A DNA stretch of 64,000 nucleotides, from positions 62,001 to 126,000 of the forward strand of contig NZ_BJKB01000004.1 in NCBI RefSeq assembly GCF_010725055.1, in the 5' to 3' direction. The position numbers and the translations under genes are program-made. Shown piece after piece: positions 6,200 through 32,746 of this stretch (within the stretch, counting starts at the first letter, position 1; each line of letters begins with the position of its first letter). This stretch comes from Gelidibacter japonicus (GTDB lineage Bacteria > Bacteroidota > Bacteroidia > Flavobacteriales > Flavobacteriaceae). Under the pieces are notes generated by a model, which was not told where the DNA came from, made no database searches, and saw only the letters and a list, made by a program, of their open reading frames with translations.

Positions 6200-7063
6200 A
6201 TGCAATTATATCCTATTGAATCTGGTAATTTCAAACTCGATGGTGGGGCAATGTTTGGCGTAGTTCCAAAATCACTTTGGCAACGTACCAACCCTGCCGA
6301 TGCCAACAATATGATTGATATTGCGGCACGTTGCTTATTGATTGAAGATGGCGACCGACTCATTCTGATTGATACTGGAATGGGCAACAAACAAAGTGAT
6401 AAGTTTTTTGGCTATTATTTTCTATGGGGAAATGACTCTATTGACAATTCTTTAAAAAACTACGGATTTCATCGGGATGACATCACTGACGTGTTCATGA
6501 CCCACCTACATTTTGATCATTGTGGTGGCAGCATCCAATGGAACAAAGACAAAACCGGTTATGAACCTGCATTTAAAAATGCACATTACTGGAGTAATTC
6601 CAAACATTGGCAATGGGCTACCCAGCCAAATAGACGTGAAAAAGCTTCTTTTTTAAAAGAAAATATCCTTCCAATGGAAGAAAGCGGACAACTTAAATTT
6701 ACCTCTCTTCCGGAAAATCGACTTTTAAAGAATTCTGAATTGGGTTTTGATATCTTTTTTGCGGATGGCCATACCGATAAACAAATGATTCCACTTATCA
6801 CCTATAAAGATAAGACCATCGCTTTTATGGCCGATTTACTGCCAACTGCTGGCCATTTGCCACTGCCATTTGTGATGGGATATGACACGAGACCTCTCTT
6901 GACTTTAGATGAAAAAGAAGAGTTTCTCAATAAAGCAGCCGATGAGAATTATTACTTATTTTTGGAACATGATGCCCATAACCAAATCATCACGGTAAAA
7001 CACACAGACAAAGGGGTCCGTCTGGATAGGACCTATACTACAAAAGATATATTTACAAATTAA
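6200..7063 (+). CDS. MBL-fold metallo-hydrolase
   Basis: A 287-residue metallo-beta-lactamase-fold hydrolase. The zinc motif THLHFDHCGG is at residues 101-110 (His102, His104, Asp106, His107). LILIDTGMG at 54-62 is the strand before it, FADGHTD and MADLLP supply further metal-site positions, and EHDAH lies near the C-terminus. There is no signal peptide, so it is probably cytoplasmic. It resembles the lactonase-like or quinoprotein-associated MBL hydrolases common in Bacteroidota; the substrate cannot be told from sequence. It is followed after 12 bp by the S8 protease gene and probably shares a transcript with it. Confidence 0.85.
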   Translation: MQLYPIESGNFKLDGGAMFGVVPKSLWQRTNPADANNMIDIAARCLLIEDGDRLILIDTGMGNKQSDKFFGYYFLWGNDSIDNSLKNYGFHRDDITDVFMTHLHFDHCGGSIQWNKDKTGYEPAFKNAHYWSNSKHWQWATQPNRREKASFLKENILPMEESGQLKFTSLPENRLLKNSELGFDIFFADGHTDKQMIPLITYKDKTIAFMADLLPTAGHLPLPFVMGYDTRPLLTLDEKEEFLNKAADENYYLFLEHDAHNQIITVKHTDKGVRLDRTYTTKDIFTN

Positions 7064-14193: not shown

Positions 14194-14628
14194 TTACTGT
14201 TGTACCGGAATCTTTTTGACTCGGTCTTCATGTCGGCCACCTGCAAATGCCGTATCTAAAAAAGTATCTACCATTTCAATAACTTGAGGTAATGCGGTAA
14301 ATCTTGCGGGAATACTCAATATATTAGCATTGTTATGTTGCCTGGCCAAGGCTACAATTTCCTTCGTCCAACACAAGGCAGATCGTACCCCTTGATGCTT
14401 ATTTGCCGTCATATTGGCACCATTACCACTTCCGCAGATAATAATGCCGTAGTCTACAACTTTATCTTCGACATCTTTTGCAACGGGATGTACAAAATCG
14501 GGATAGTCCACACTGTCATTACTGTTGGTTCCATAATTTTTGACCATAAATCCTTTGTTTTCCAAGTGCTTTACAACAGCTAACTTATACTCAGTTCCGG
14601 CGTGATCATTACCAATTGAGATTTTCAT
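14194..14628 (-). CDS. rpiB: Ribose-5-phosphate isomerase B
   Basis: It interconverts ribose-5-phosphate and ribulose-5-phosphate in the non-oxidative pentose phosphate pathway. Signatures are IGNDHAGTEYK at the N-terminus, a phosphate-binding CGSGNGANMTANK (the common form is CGTGxG) and the closing AFAGGRHEDRVKKI. Its 144 residues are typical of RpiB/LacAB. The start ATG is followed at once by conserved sequence. It faces away from the large AT-rich gap that precedes rnr. Confidence 0.95.
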   Translation of the reverse strand: MKISIGNDHAGTEYKLAVVKHLENKGFMVKNYGTNSNDSVDYPDFVHPVAKDVEDKVVDYGIIICGSGNGANMTANKHQGVRSALCWTKEIVALARQHNNANILSIPARFTALPQVIEMVDTFLDTAFAGGRHEDRVKKIPVQQ

Positions 14629-14639
14629 TTTTATAAAAT

Positions 14640-15180
14640 TTTATTTAGCCCATAAAGTTACTAAATGCACATTAATAATAGAGCTATTTATACATCTATA
14701 TCTCCATCAATTAGCCTTGTTAACAATTGGCTGAGTTCTTTTCATTACATGTTGATATCTTGTCATTAATTTCTAACATAAATATTTCCAAATATCATTT
14801 ATTTTTACAAGCAAGTATAGAAACCATATGGCCTAAAATTTAACTCTTTTTTTACTGTTCACTTATCACCAAAAATAAATGCTCTATCAACATAAAATTT
14901 AAATAATCTTATTGGGAAAACGATGTTAAACTCAGTTATGGACAGTTGTTAATAACTATATGAATATGCTTTATAATCAGACCATTCAAATGATATATCC
15001 TGTTAACTACGGCTTGATGGATTGTCAATATCTACATTGCAAAATAAAAACCAACAAAGTTATACCCGTTATTAACAGACTATCATAATCACCAATATTT
15101 TTTTAAAATTTTAATAAAAACTGATTATTATAAATATAAATGTGAATAACTGTTTTTTAGGTTGAAAATTGAAGTCAAGT
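14640..15180. other. Candidate replication origin region (AT-rich, DnaA-box-like words)
   Basis: This stretch between rpiB and rnr holds no believable gene. It has words close to the DnaA box TTATCCACA: TGTGAATAA (15141-15149, one mismatch on the reverse), TTATCACCA (14863-14871), TTATGGACA (14936-14944), and an inverted pair TGTTAATAAC (14947-14956) / GTTATTAACA (15068-15077), plus the palindrome TTGTTAACAA (14717-14726). A very AT-rich run at about 15090-15140 could unwind. Hand counts suggest that + strand GC skew changes sign around here, and parS-like sites lie 15-18 kb to the right. No dnaA gene is in the window. This is inference. Confidence 0.4.
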
Positions 15181-15407
15181 TATGGAAGAAATTGACATCT
15201 TATCCTTTTCAGGGTTTAATAGAACAGCGGTAATTATAGTTACTAAAATAGTACTGGTTAAGAAAAAGCTTTTTTATTTCATTTATCATGCTGACATAAT
15301 ATTTTATTACCCAATGTGTTTTTGCCTGAGGGTCTTATCAATATTAGAAAGGCTGCTTTTTGTGAAAGTTTAGCCAGTATAACGCTCCTAAGTAGTCTTA
15401 ATAGAAC

Positions 15408-15571
15408 GGAGTTTCAATACTTAAAAAAGCAAGAATTTTTAACAATTTGGGTCATTTGGTTTCAGAAAAAAGAATAATAAAATCAGTGTTTCCAACTATT
15501 CAAAAGGTCTGAATTTTGTAGAAATAGAGACTATTCAAGGTAAGATTAACAAGAAATTTGTGATAGAGTAA
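15408..15571 (+). pseudogene. Relic of a type IX secretion (Por) C-terminal sorting domain
   Basis: Frame one from 15408 reads LKKARIFNNLGHLVSEK, and a second frame then reads KISVSNYSKGLNFVEIE followed by KINKKFVIE and a stop at 15569-15571. Joined, these are the classic T9SS type A sorting domain (…YNxxGxLV…NxxxLxxGxYxVxI…KKxxxx). The join falls in an A-rich run, so a frameshift has occurred, and no cargo domain can be read upstream. A short open frame at 15182-15373 does not resemble a cargo protein. It is probably the last remnant of a secreted adhesin or enzyme gene. Confidence 0.75.
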
Positions 15572-15772
15572 CTTATTAAAAGTATGTGATTTATAAAGGT
15601 ACAGGTTATTTTTTTGACCTTTTTACGTTAACTTAACCATAATTTTATAATGGTTTCACATTAAAACCGTAGTTTTGTAAAATCTTAATTACCAATCTTC
15701 TCCTTTAATTAAGTTTCGAATAACTGAATTTCGCTAACTTTAGAAATTCAATAAGATTACATTATAAAATAA

Positions 15773-18007
15773 ATGACAAAAAAAAGAAGAAAGGGATCAT
15801 CAAATAAGATCTCTAACCTAACAAATACAATTCTAAGTATTTTAAAAAAAGATAGAAATCAATCCTTTAATTACAAACAAATTGCTGCTAAACTTGGAGT
15901 GGATGACGCTTCCAGCAGAAATCAAATAATAAAAAAACTTCAAGAGCTCCTTGCCAAAAAGGAAATTGAAGAAACAGAACGGGGTAAATTTAAAGCTATT
16001 GTTACTACAGAATACCACACTGGGATTCTTGACATGGCCTCCAAAGGTTCAGGATACATCATTAGTCCAGACTTTGATGAGGATGTCTATATCGCATCAA
16101 ACAATATCAACAAAGCCTTAAATGGTGATGAGGTTGAATTCTACGTCTATAAACGTCGTAAGAAAGGAAAGTTTGAGGGTGAAATTACAAATATTATCAA
16201 ACGTGCCAAAAGTGAGTATGTGGGTGTGATACAAATACACTCAAATTATGCTTTTGTAGTGGTGAATGGAAACAAGATGTACACTGATATTTTCGTACCA
16301 ATCAATAAAATCAATAAAGCTGAAGATGGAGATGTTGTTCTTGTATCTCTTGAAAGCTGGGATCCAAAAGAAGATTCACCAAAAGGAGCCGTATTAAAAG
16401 TTTTAGGAAAACCTGGAGAACACAATACTGAAATCCATGCTATTCTGGCGGAATACGGTTTGCCTTATGAATTTCCTCAGGAAGTTGAAGACTATGCCAA
16501 TAATTTAGATACCTCCATAAATGAGAAAGAAATAGCCAAACGACGTGATATGCGGAAGGCACTCACATTTACCATAGATCCAAAGGATGCCAAAGATTTT
16601 GATGATGCGTTGTCTTTTGAAGTTTTGGATAATGGATTGTATGAAATAGGAATCCATATTGCGGATGTATCGCATTATGTACAAGAAAATACCATTTTGG
16701 ATGATGAGGCCTACGAGCGTGCCACATCGGTTTATTTAGTAGATAGAGTAGTACCCATGCTTCCAGAAGTACTTTCAAACAATGCGTGTTCTTTAAGACC
16801 CAATGAAGAAAAATATACCTTTTCTGCAGTGTTTCATATGAATGATATGGCAGAAATTAAGAAGCAATGGTTTGGGAGAACGGTGACTTACAGTGATGCA
16901 CGTTTTTCTTATGAAGAAGCGCAAGTTATTATTGAAAATAATACAAAAGTGCCTTCTCATAAAGATATTTCCTCAATAGATACGTTAATTCCCGAAGACA
17001 TTGCCATTGAAGAAAAGGAATACCATGCGGATAAAAAAGTTGGATACGCCGTTTTAAAAATGGACGAGATGGCCAAGATCATGCGTGGAAAAAGGATGAA
17101 AGAAGGCGCTATTTCATTTGATAAAGTAGAAGTAAAGTTTGAATTGGATGAACAGGCCAATCCGATTGGTGTGTTTTTTAAAACCAGCCAGGACGCCAAC
17201 AAACTGATTGAAGAATTTATGCTGCTGGCCAATAAAAAAGTGGCCGAATTTATTGGAAAACAATCGCCTAAAAAGACATTTGTATACCGGGTCCATGATG
17301 AGCCAGATGCTACTAAATTGGCAACCTTACAAGGTGTGGTTTCTAAATTTGGATACAAACTTAATTTTAAAGATCGCAATAGCATTGCCTCATCCTTAAA
17401 CGGCTTATTACGTGATGTCCAAGGTAAAAAAGAACAGAATTTAGTCGATACCTTGACCATCAGAACGATGAGTAAAGCAGAATATACCACGGATAACATC
17501 GGACATTACGGTTTAGCATTTGATTACTATACACATTTTACCTCGCCGATTCGTCGTTACCCGGACGTTATGGTACATCGTTTATTACAACATTATCTTG
17601 ATGGTGGAAAATCAGCTAATGAAGCCATCTATGAAGAAAAATGTAACCATTCCAGTAATATGGAAAATCTGTCTACAAAGGCAGAGCGCGATTCTATAAA
17701 ATACATGCAGATCAAGTTTATGGAAAACCATAAAAATGAAGAGTTTGTTGGAGTTATTTCAGGAGTGACCGACTGGGGGATTTATGTGGAAATCATCTCC
17801 AATAAATGTGAAGGTATGGTGTCTGTAAGAGATATGAACGACGATCATTACGAATTTGACGAGACTGAATATGCCTTGATTGGAAGAAAATCTGGTGTAA
17901 GTTATCAACTTGGTGAAGAAGTTGTTGTAAAGGTTAAAAGTACAGATTTGGTCAAAAAGCATCTCGATTTTACCTTGATTGGGAAACCTCAAATTATTCA
18001 ATTGTAA
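15773..18007 (+). CDS. rnr: Ribonuclease R
   Basis: A processive 3'-5' exoribonuclease (RNase II/RNB family) able to degrade structured RNA. From the N-terminus it has a basic start, a helix-turn-helix-like segment (about 20-65), cold-shock-type domains (about 75-240), the RNB catalytic domain with TIDPKDAKDFDDALS (the Asp cluster binding Mg2+) and TSPIRRYPDVMVHRLL, and an S1 domain near the end (FVGVISGVTDWGIYVEI, about 665-735). At 744 residues it is full length. An ATG followed by a lysine/arginine-rich start suits the family. Confidence 0.95.
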   Translation: MTKKRRKGSSNKISNLTNTILSILKKDRNQSFNYKQIAAKLGVDDASSRNQIIKKLQELLAKKEIEETERGKFKAIVTTEYHTGILDMASKGSGYIISPDFDEDVYIASNNINKALNGDEVEFYVYKRRKKGKFEGEITNIIKRAKSEYVGVIQIHSNYAFVVVNGNKMYTDIFVPINKINKAEDGDVVLVSLESWDPKEDSPKGAVLKVLGKPGEHNTEIHAILAEYGLPYEFPQEVEDYANNLDTSINEKEIAKRRDMRKALTFTIDPKDAKDFDDALSFEVLDNGLYEIGIHIADVSHYVQENTILDDEAYERATSVYLVDRVVPMLPEVLSNNACSLRPNEEKYTFSAVFHMNDMAEIKKQWFGRTVTYSDARFSYEEAQVIIENNTKVPSHKDISSIDTLIPEDIAIEEKEYHADKKVGYAVLKMDEMAKIMRGKRMKEGAISFDKVEVKFELDEQANPIGVFFKTSQDANKLIEEFMLLANKKVAEFIGKQSPKKTFVYRVHDEPDATKLATLQGVVSKFGYKLNFKDRNSIASSLNGLLRDVQGKKEQNLVDTLTIRTMSKAEYTTDNIGHYGLAFDYYTHFTSPIRRYPDVMVHRLLQHYLDGGKSANEAIYEEKCNHSSNMENLSTKAERDSIKYMQIKFMENHKNEEFVGVISGVTDWGIYVEIISNKCEGMVSVRDMNDDHYEFDETEYALIGRKSGVSYQLGEEVVVKVKSTDLVKKHLDFTLIGKPQIIQL

Positions 18008-30389: not shown

Positions 30390-30406
30390 GTATCAGGAAA
30401 TCACCG

Positions 30407-30414
30407 TATATTTG
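30407..30414 (+). promoter_or_regulatory. -7 box before mnmG
   Basis: TATATTTG matches TAnnTTTG, about 120 bp before the mnmG ATG. If used, the first parS-like palindrome lies in the mRNA leader. Confidence 0.4.
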
Positions 30415-30494
30415 CAAACTTTTATTTTTAAATATAAATTTTGGGCGGATTTGCTGACCACGATCTTCAAAACCTGATTTTAGTAAAAGCACAT

Positions 30495-30510
30495 TGTTCC
30501 ACGTGGAACA
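30495..30510. promoter_or_regulatory. parS-like centromere site 1
   Basis: TGTTCCACGTGGAACA is a perfect 16-bp palindrome and closely matches the bacterial parS consensus TGTTNCACGTGAAACA bound by ParB. It lies 23 bp before the mnmG start. A second copy follows the gene. Confidence 0.75.
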
Positions 30511-30533
30511 TTAAAATTTAAAATTAACAAACA

Positions 30534-32405
30534 ATGTTTGATAAAGTATATGATGTAATTGTTGTTGGAGGCGGGCATGCCGGTAGTGAGGCGGCTGCGG
30601 CTGCGGCCAATATGGGTAGTGCTACACTTTTGATTACAATGAATCTTCAAAACATAGCACAAATGTCCTGTAATCCTGCTATGGGCGGTATCGCTAAAGG
30701 ACAGATTTTGCGTGAGATTGATGCCTTGGGTGGGTATAGCGGTATTGTGAGCGATACCTCGGCTATCCAATTTAAAATGCTAAATAAATCAAAAGGACCT
30801 GCTATGTGGAGTCCGAGGGTCCAAAGTGACCGTATGCGTTTTTCAGAGGATTGGCGATTGATGTTGGAACGTACCCCTAATCTCGATTTTTATCAGGATA
30901 TGGTTTCTGGGCTTTTAGTAGAAAATGAACAAGTGGTTGGTGTTAAAACCTCCTTGGGATTGGAAGTGCGAACCAAAACGGTTGTCCTTACTAATGGCAC
31001 TTTTCTGAATGGCTTGATTCATATTGGTGATAAAAGTTTTGGTGGGGGTCGTGCTGGTGAAAAGGCCGCCACTGGAATTACCGAACAACTTGTTGATTTG
31101 GGATTTGAATCTGGAAGAATGAAAACAGGAACGCCTCCAAGAGTTGATGGCCGATCTTTGGACTATTCTAAAATGGTCGTTCAGCCAGGAGATGAGATCC
31201 CGGAAAAGTTTTCTTATTCGGATGTTACGAAGCCTTTAACGCATCAACGCGATTGTCACATGAGTTATACAAGTCCGCTGGTCCACGATTTATTACGTGA
31301 AGGATTTGACCGTTCACCAATGTTCAATGGCCGAATTAAAAGTACAGGACCAAGATATTGCCCATCTATTGAAGATAAAATCAATCGGTTTGCAAGCAAA
31401 GACAGACATCAAATTTTTGTAGAACCAGAAGGCTGGAATACCATTGAAGTATATGTGAATGGATTTTCGACATCCCTGCCAGAAGATGTACAGTTTAAAG
31501 CTTTGCGTTCTGTAGAAGGGTTTGAGAACGTTAAATTCTTTAGACCGGGATATGCCATCGAATATGATTATTTTCCACCAACTCAGTTGAAGCACACCTT
31601 GGAAACCAAATTAATTAATGGACTTTATTTTGCTGGACAGATCAATGGGACTACAGGTTATGAAGAGGCGGCTTCACAGGGTTTAATGGCCGGAATCAAT
31701 GCTGCACTTCAAGTTCAGGAGAGAGATGAGTTTACCTTGAAGCGAAATGAGGCCTATATTGGAGTCTTAATTGACGATTTGATTACCAAAGGCACTGAAG
31801 AGCCATATCGTATGTTTACGTCCCGTGCTGAATATAGAACACTATTAAGACAGGATAATGCCGATTTAAGGCTCACTCCAAAAGGATATGAACTTGGTTT
31901 GGCTAGTGAAAAACGTTTAAGGAGAATGGAAGAAAAACATTCCAAATCGGATGCCTTTGTTGAGTTTTTTAAACAGACCAGTGTTCAGGCCGATGACATC
32001 AATCCTATTTTAAGTGACAATGATTCTGCATTGGTAAATCAATCTGGTAAACTTTTTAAAATTTTTGCACGACCAAACATTTCTATGGATGACGTTAGAA
32101 AACTGGAAAGTGTAGAATCGTATATACAAGAGCATAATTTGGATAAGGAAACAATTGAACAAGCCGAAATTCAAGTCAAATATTCTGGCTATATCGACAA
32201 AGAAAAGAATAATGCCGATAAGCTCAATCGTTTGGAAGATTTGAAAATCCCGGCAGGATTCGACTATAGTAAACTTAAATCAATGAGTATTGAGGCGAGA
32301 CAAAAGCTAGAGAAAATTCAGCCACGTACCATTTCGCAAGCCTCGCGAATTAGTGGTGTAACGCCAAGTGATGTTTCTGTGCTTTTAGTTTATATGGGTA
32401 GATAG
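30534..32405 (+). CDS. mnmG: tRNA uridine-5-carboxymethylaminomethyl(34) synthesis enzyme MnmG
   Basis: This FAD enzyme acts with MnmE to install (carboxymethyl)aminomethyl groups on U34 of several tRNAs. The FAD-binding VVGGGHAGSEAA is at the N-terminus. GIDA signatures GPRYCPSIEDK and GYEEAASQGLMAGINAAL are present, and the C-terminal helical part ends near ISQASRISGVTPSDVSVLLVYM. At 623 residues it is full length. It stands between two parS-like palindromes (30495-30510 and 32424-32439). mnmG (gidA) is often near the replication origin in other bacteria. Confidence 0.97.
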   Translation: MFDKVYDVIVVGGGHAGSEAAAAAANMGSATLLITMNLQNIAQMSCNPAMGGIAKGQILREIDALGGYSGIVSDTSAIQFKMLNKSKGPAMWSPRVQSDRMRFSEDWRLMLERTPNLDFYQDMVSGLLVENEQVVGVKTSLGLEVRTKTVVLTNGTFLNGLIHIGDKSFGGGRAGEKAATGITEQLVDLGFESGRMKTGTPPRVDGRSLDYSKMVVQPGDEIPEKFSYSDVTKPLTHQRDCHMSYTSPLVHDLLREGFDRSPMFNGRIKSTGPRYCPSIEDKINRFASKDRHQIFVEPEGWNTIEVYVNGFSTSLPEDVQFKALRSVEGFENVKFFRPGYAIEYDYFPPTQLKHTLETKLINGLYFAGQINGTTGYEEAASQGLMAGINAALQVQERDEFTLKRNEAYIGVLIDDLITKGTEEPYRMFTSRAEYRTLLRQDNADLRLTPKGYELGLASEKRLRRMEEKHSKSDAFVEFFKQTSVQADDINPILSDNDSALVNQSGKLFKIFARPNISMDDVRKLESVESYIQEHNLDKETIEQAEIQVKYSGYIDKEKNNADKLNRLEDLKIPAGFDYSKLKSMSIEARQKLEKIQPRTISQASRISGVTPSDVSVLLVYMGR

Positions 32406-32423
32406 GTTTTAAAGCTTTAAGAT

Positions 32424-32439
32424 TGTTCCACGTGGAACG
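32424..32439. promoter_or_regulatory. parS-like centromere site 2
   Basis: TGTTCCACGTGGAACG has the same 14-bp palindromic core as site 1 (GTTCCACGTGGAAC) and lies 19 bp after the mnmG stop codon, in the opposite flank. Confidence 0.72.
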
Positions 32440-32746
32440 TGTGACTGTTTTTTAATGGTTGTTGTCAGTTTTTATCTTAGAATTGTGTTTGATCCTAGTG
32501 GTGTAAGTATAATTAACTGCATTTTTGTTTGATAGATTTTAGCTGCAACAATGTTTAGTAGGGAAAAACTACCTGTGTGTTCAGAATAGATCAGTGTCGT
32601 CAGCGTTCTATTATTTAACTAAAAAATCGATAGAAGAGTCAAAGCCTTTTATAAGATTGAATGTTGAAAAAGTATGGACCGATTGTTCTAAAAGATTCAA
32701 GCAATTCATTAATTTCGCTCCCGTATAATCATTTTAAAATCATCCA
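32440..32746. other. Non-coding gap after mnmG, with a partial repeat copy
   Basis: ATCAGTG-TCGTCAGCGTTCTATT at 32590-32612 matches the right end of the element at 19940-20208 (ATCAGTG … CGTTCTATT) with its middle deleted. I see no gene in the rest. Confidence 0.5.

Follow-up and report, generated by a model that had tools for sequence, protein, structure and literature searches.

A candidate chromosomal replication origin between rpiB and rnr of a Gelidibacter-like flavobacterium

The stretch of DNA analysed here (the window; 64,000 nucleotides) comprises positions 62001-126000 of contig C4 in a draft assembly of 4,669,066 bases (61 contigs), and we refer to the genome as Gelidibacter-like, its rnr gene sharing 96% identity with the one from Gelidibacter pelagius. 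The features on which our analysis centers lie in and around the region separating rnr from a divergently oriented rpiB-type gene, and are as follows (coordinates are those of the window).

14194-14628, minus strand: rpiB-type gene (LacAB_rpiB, PF02502; Pfam 1e-53), left border of the gap
14629-15772: entire intergenic region separating the divergent genes rpiB and rnr, 1144 bp, no open reading frame longer than 63 aa
14711-15150: proposed oriC core, which can be aligned across relatives (10-gap and 41-gap alignments)
14718-14725: palindromic box-like site TGTTAACA (motif scan, 10-gap alignment)
14750-14757, minus strand: box-like site TATCAACA (motif scan, 41-gap alignment)
14885-14892, plus strand: box-like site TATCAACA (motif scan, 41-gap alignment)
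14936-14944, plus strand: degenerate box TTATGGACA, left arm of an inverted pair (place conserved in both alignments)
14947-14955, minus strand: putative DnaA box TTATTAACA, right arm of the inverted pair (E. coli-type search, hold-out matrix)
15069-15077, plus strand: putative DnaA box TTATTAACA, left edge of the unwinding element (strong conservation of TATTAACA here in the 41-gap alignment)
15093-15142: proposed DNA-unwinding element (lowest nearest-neighbour stability of any 50-bp segment in the 64 kb)
15141-15149, minus strand: putative DnaA box TTATTCACA, right edge of the unwinding element (often TTATCCACA in relatives)
15176-15504: stretch of ~330 bp between oriC core and rnr leader (sequence search, alignment)
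15670-15677, plus strand: TAGTTTTG, likely rnr promoter (fits TAnnTTTG, which we take to be the consensus of the Bacteroidetes -7 promoter element)
15773-18007, plus strand: rnr (ribonuclease R; Pfam RNB 1.5e-106), right border of the gap
30495-30510: putative parS site TGTTCCACGTGGAACA, 15.3 kb from the gap
32424-32439: second parS-like site, 3 mismatches (consensus search)

The gap is thus free of genes, as had originally been predicted, and its predicted AT-richness is likewise evident: the GC content of positions 14640-15180 is 25.1%, compared with 35.8% for the window, and only 0.35% of 541-bp segments are equally AT-rich. Pfam confirms all of the neighbours that had been named, that is, RnpA, an S41 protease, an Na/H antiporter, a gltX-type synthetase and mnmG. 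A search for repeats within the rpiB-rnr gap returned weak, chance-like pairs only.

The inverted pair TGTTAATAAC/GTTATTAACA that the original prediction had named is present, with TGTTAATAAC at 14947 and GTTATTAACA at 15068, each found a single time when the window is read on the plus strand. Over the window as a whole, boxes of the E. coli type (TTATNCACA, one mismatch) number 61 vs 94 expected and thus show no enrichment. A hold-out box matrix, trained on 41 gaps with the window and its five Gelidibacter relatives left out, identifies 3 sites in the own gap; of 1000 Markov sequences, 16 contain at least as many at the higher threshold and 24 at the lower one; the usual best-matching box reads TTATTCACA in the window. 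When counted with a motif set that was chosen after the gaps had been seen, the own gap represents the densest box cluster within the contig's first 200 kb (6 per 500 bp, runner-up 2), and the hold-out matrix applied to the same 200 kb yields 3 sites in the gap and 2 at the runner-up, so that the better cluster elsewhere which might have spoken against the prediction was not found in this part of the contig. Taken alone, the own gap is suggestive of an origin without being strong evidence for one; it is the comparison with relatives that decides.

This comparison supports the presence of an oriC, inasmuch as both the divergent rpiB-rnr place and the box array recur in related Flavobacteriaceae. 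Among 199 genomes of the family, 196 have a match to rnr and 192 a match to rpiB; both were found, among the matches listed, in 135 genomes and on one contig in 127, and the two genes are divergent within 15 kb in 125 of these 127 (likewise among the matches listed; median gap 823 bp). Outside the family, rnr and rpiB were read by hand, among the matches listed, within ~12 kb of each other in at least 15 genomes of the class, invariably with both genes on one strand; this class-wide sample also contains two family members besides the own genome, and in both of them the genes are divergent. It looks as if an inversion, or the origin itself, had come between rnr and rpiB in the family.

A single scan yielded 80 rnr loci, of which 70 have an rpiB match on the same locus (in one, L089, on the opposite side of rnr). 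After removal of L089, the ten loci that lack rpiB and the longer gaps, we obtained a set of 47 gaps, namely 46 shorter than 1500 bp plus the own one. In this set, TATTAACA occurs 153 times vs 10.4 times in Markov sequences and is present in 47/47 gaps, and TTATCCACA occurs 30 times vs 0.7 expected and is present in 30/47 (the expectations include a pseudocount of 0.3). The boxes are also regularly spaced: a forward TATTAACA box and a reverse TTATYMACA box lie 71-73 bp apart in 36/47 gaps, this facing pair being absent, as so defined, from the other 11, and a further reverse box precedes the forward box by 121-123 bp in 26/47. The window counterparts of the conserved three-box geometry are the boxes at 14947, 15069 and 15141. 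Each of the 47 gaps holds 3 to 9 box-like sites, and the best 500 bp of 80 sampled 20-kb stretches from four relatives hold at most 3 (3 in 5/80). Hence, a cluster of putative DnaA boxes within one intergenic region, as expected for an oriC, is seen both in the own contig and across the 47 gaps. In 20 further gaps, chosen by hand from genomes whose rnr is less similar (61-70% identity), TATCAACA is found 24 times (1.0 expected; 17/20 gaps) and TATTAACA 32 times (4.2 expected; 15/20), with TTATCCACA in just 1/20; the box of the lineage is therefore better written TTATYMACA. A search with the lineage's own consensus, which had been proposed as a check, thus reveals boxes that are enriched and regularly spaced in rpiB-rnr gaps.

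The strict module TATTAACA-N50-75-TGTGNATAA matches the whole of the own genome just once, inside the rpiB-rnr gap, and has 87 matches in 66 of the 199 family genomes, compared with 37 for the reversed control. Since only 41 of these 87 (in 39/199 genomes) lie within 1.5 kb of rpiB or rnr among the matches listed, and the remaining 46 are found elsewhere at near the control level, the strict module is not family-wide. In these sequence searches it proved to be limited to near relatives, which slightly lowers our confidence that the gap is an oriC.

Consistent with what is expected of an oriC, an AT-rich element predicted from nearest-neighbour energies to be easily melted is located beside the boxes. 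The least stable 50 bp sit between the boxes at 15069 and 15141, the margin being small (-0.957 for 15093-15142 vs -0.961 for the next-ranking stretch). As described in PMC8287927, the BUS unwinding module consists of DnaA boxes plus DnaA-trios; we took at least three DnaA-trios lying no more than 16 bp from a DnaA box to be indicative of it. In the window, too, the AT-rich unwinding stretch directly adjoins a DnaA box, and inspection of the 10-gap alignment by eye did not make out a clear 3'-GAT-5' run, looser 3'-NAN-5' triplets being expected often by chance in such AT-rich DNA.

The change of strand bias that had been predicted at the gap is found when skew is balanced for gene strand: its sign changes there in the own contig and in G. 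sediminis, and around the gap in the chromosomes of five relatives. The base counts that had been made by hand were right to within one base per count. A minimum of cumulative skew over the whole chromosome had also been expected at the gap. Within the window, the raw cumulative minimum falls at 6867 and not in the gap, which we ascribe to gene strand, and the step is located at the gap only once gene strand has been balanced. The evidence at the scale of chromosomes comes from relatives, because the own draft is in 61 contigs. For five single-contig chromosomes (Wocania ichthyoenteri and four relatives), twenty 20-kb samples each were taken ~200 kb apart, with gene strand balanced by a simple longest-open-frame assignment in place of a gene caller; 15 of the 100 samples were unscorable. 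On the higher-coordinate side of the gap, 40 of the 43 samples that could be scored have a positive balanced skew; on the other side, it is negative in 38 of 42. Four of the seven exceptional samples adjoin the point opposite the gap. Best fits to the raw skew of the first four chromosomes place the switch at the gap in two of them; in the other two, it is off by three sample steps (~0.6-0.7 Mb). For G. sediminis (20-kb bins), 8/8 scorable bins to the left are negative and 9/10 to the right positive, so that the sign changes across the gap, and in the own contig 4/4 scorable balanced bins to the left are negative and 5/6 to the right positive. In the own contig, the skew of plus-strand genes is 0.02-0.05 to the left of the gap and rises to 0.11-0.16 over the first 40 kb to its right; in 67 pooled loci it increases across the gap from 0.07-0.08 to 0.11-0.15, except for the adjoining left bin (0.231); minus-strand genes of the 67 loci exhibit no clear step at the gap. 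On gene-strand-balanced values, and at a resolution of ~200 kb in the five chromosomes and of 10-20 kb at best, the gap thus lies where leading- and lagging-strand composition switch, as seen in relatives and, locally, in the own contig.

In many other bacteria the origin lies beside dnaA, and three single-contig relatives (G014, G154 and G168) are indeed numbered from dnaA. The own genome encodes DnaA on another contig than the gap (C24:21075-22469; 516 bits, above the curated cut-off), and dnaA is at least 0.9 Mb away from the gap in 12/12 single-contig relatives. Measured from the gap, dnaA lies 0.60, 0.77, 0.58 and 0.30 of the way around the circle in four chromosomes, away from the skew switch, and the 600 bp upstream of the own dnaA contain one box-like site, with no box cluster found in 40 kb of its 49.6-kb contig. 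We therefore see next to no chance that this chromosome is replicated from dnaA.

The two parS-like sites that had been reported 15-18 kb from the gap are those at 30495 and 32424. With up to 3 mismatches, the window contains 4 parS matches vs 0.51 expected, a number reached in 0 of 100 shuffles. In 14 genomes, 45 sites with up to 2 mismatches were found, compared with 21 for the reversed control; 19 of the 45 are of the TGTTYCACGTGRAACA form (a form chosen after the hits had been seen), which occurs at least once in each of the 14 genomes and always within 55 kb of the gap, and 21 of the other 26 are farther than 60 kb from it. The consensus on which the assignment of the window sites is based is the one that we take to be that of parS, and judged from their sequence these sites presumably act as parS. 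The parS-like sites directly flank mnmG on both sides (30495-32439).

It may then be asked if the origin is located at mnmG itself, ~16 kb to the right of the gap, given that the skew is resolved here to 10-20 kb at best. According to PMC12843772, an origin predicted with Ori-Finder 2022 in a Bizionia relative is labelled 'mnmG', with GC skew said to validate it. Such an origin also fits the rpiB-rnr neighbourhood, and the published label may name an indicator gene only. Moreover, box-like sites were not found in either of the intergenic stretches beside mnmG (30390-30533 and 32406-32746), these flanks holding parS-like sites, and we regard an origin at mnmG as very unlikely.

A further possibility is that the gap represents nothing but a long divergent promoter region, in which DnaA or another regulator acts on rpiB and rnr, with the origin being elsewhere. 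The two genes are in fact divergent, and a conserved leader with a promoter-like element adjoins rnr at 15640-15772. However, the array in the window ends more than 600 bp from rnr, relatives such as G044, G121 and G145 keep the module by rpiB with rnr being 5-8 kb off, and control of transcription does not explain why the skew switch and the clustering of parS coincide at the same place. Hence, we give this possibility little credence.

Motif conservation, spacing, low duplex stability, the change in strand composition and the nearby parS-type sites are direct observations, and they agree on one place for oriC. The proposal of an oriC between rpiB and rnr is thus supported by the skew of relatives, the box consensus of the lineage and the comparison across the family, and we conclude that the chromosomal oriC of this Gelidibacter-like flavobacterium very probably lies in the rpiB-rnr gap and that the same place probably serves much of the family. 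At such an origin, DnaA produced from its distant gene would bind an ordered array of TTATYMACA boxes, mostly TTATTAACA, with one box nearer the E. coli consensus sitting beside the unwinding element; the AT-rich stretch of ~50 bp would then melt between two inward-facing boxes whose starts are ~72 bp apart, helicases would be loaded, and with initiation the forks would leave in both directions. ParB bound to the parS sites, ~15 kb away here, would segregate the new origins.

Comparison with solved DnaA structures provides a lead, and a lead only, as to a changed box. The helix signature by which we located the recognition helix is the one we take to be characteristic of DnaA. The own DnaA reads DHATV there and 8btg and 1l8q, presumably the B. 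subtilis and Aquifex proteins, respectively, read DHTTV, corresponding to alanine for threonine; a third solved DnaA, 2z4r, reads SHPVV. Alanine is found in 7/7 flavobacterial DnaA loci (the own one and the six best-scoring of 13 genomes). Among DnaA loci of the class (L244-L273, the best 30 of 57 genomes above the cut-off), 21 have alanine, 8 serine and 1 threonine, with DHATV or DHSTV in 29/30 (the own locus, L001, has DHATV); since 21/30 thus also have alanine, any shift in recognition would be wider than the family. Our search of the literature for contacts of DnaA Thr435 returned no paper, and a base contact at this position is therefore presumptive. It is conceivable, if rather doubtful, that the lineage possesses an origin code of its own, in which a DnaA with an alanine helix would read mainly TTATYAACA, in fixed spacing around the unwinding element and with a near-canonical box at its edge.

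Compared with the oriC of E. coli or B. subtilis, the present candidate likewise combines a cluster of 9-mer boxes with an AT-rich unwinding element, a skew switch and parS-type sites nearby, but its boxes are mostly TTATTAACA or TTATCAACA and not TTATCCACA, and dnaA is not adjacent. An oriC far from dnaA is common in Bacteroidetes according to PMC4755523 (Prevotella intermedia OMA14). The Bacteroidetes origins of Ori-Finder and DoriC, as there described, were similarly found by skew and boxes far from dnaA; what distinguishes the present case is a flavobacterial place with defined flanks (rpiB and rnr) and a defined geometry. For Blattabacterium, neither boxes nor dnaA were found, as stated in PMC2768785. 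In the literature searched, we did not find the rpiB-rnr gap named as the flavobacterial origin, and DoriC entries may already hold it. The element itself is ordinary in kind; its place is conserved and widely shared, and its box is typical of the lineage. This provides a concrete, testable oriC for a large marine family whose dnaA is a misleading guide, and it may serve as a reference point for read-depth estimates of growth rate and for flavobacterial oriC plasmids; the box variant and the 72-bp geometry are themselves testable with purified DnaA.

Finally, the ~330 bp at 15176-15504 are absent from close relatives in the 10-gap alignment. A word-11 search (E 0.01) with this stretch against the compared loci gave no match besides the window's own copies, and a word-7 search matched 15421-15531 to L031, among the matches listed. 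In G. pelagius (L018), extra DNA is found on the rpiB side instead. It seems that the edges of the origin gain DNA and that its core does not.
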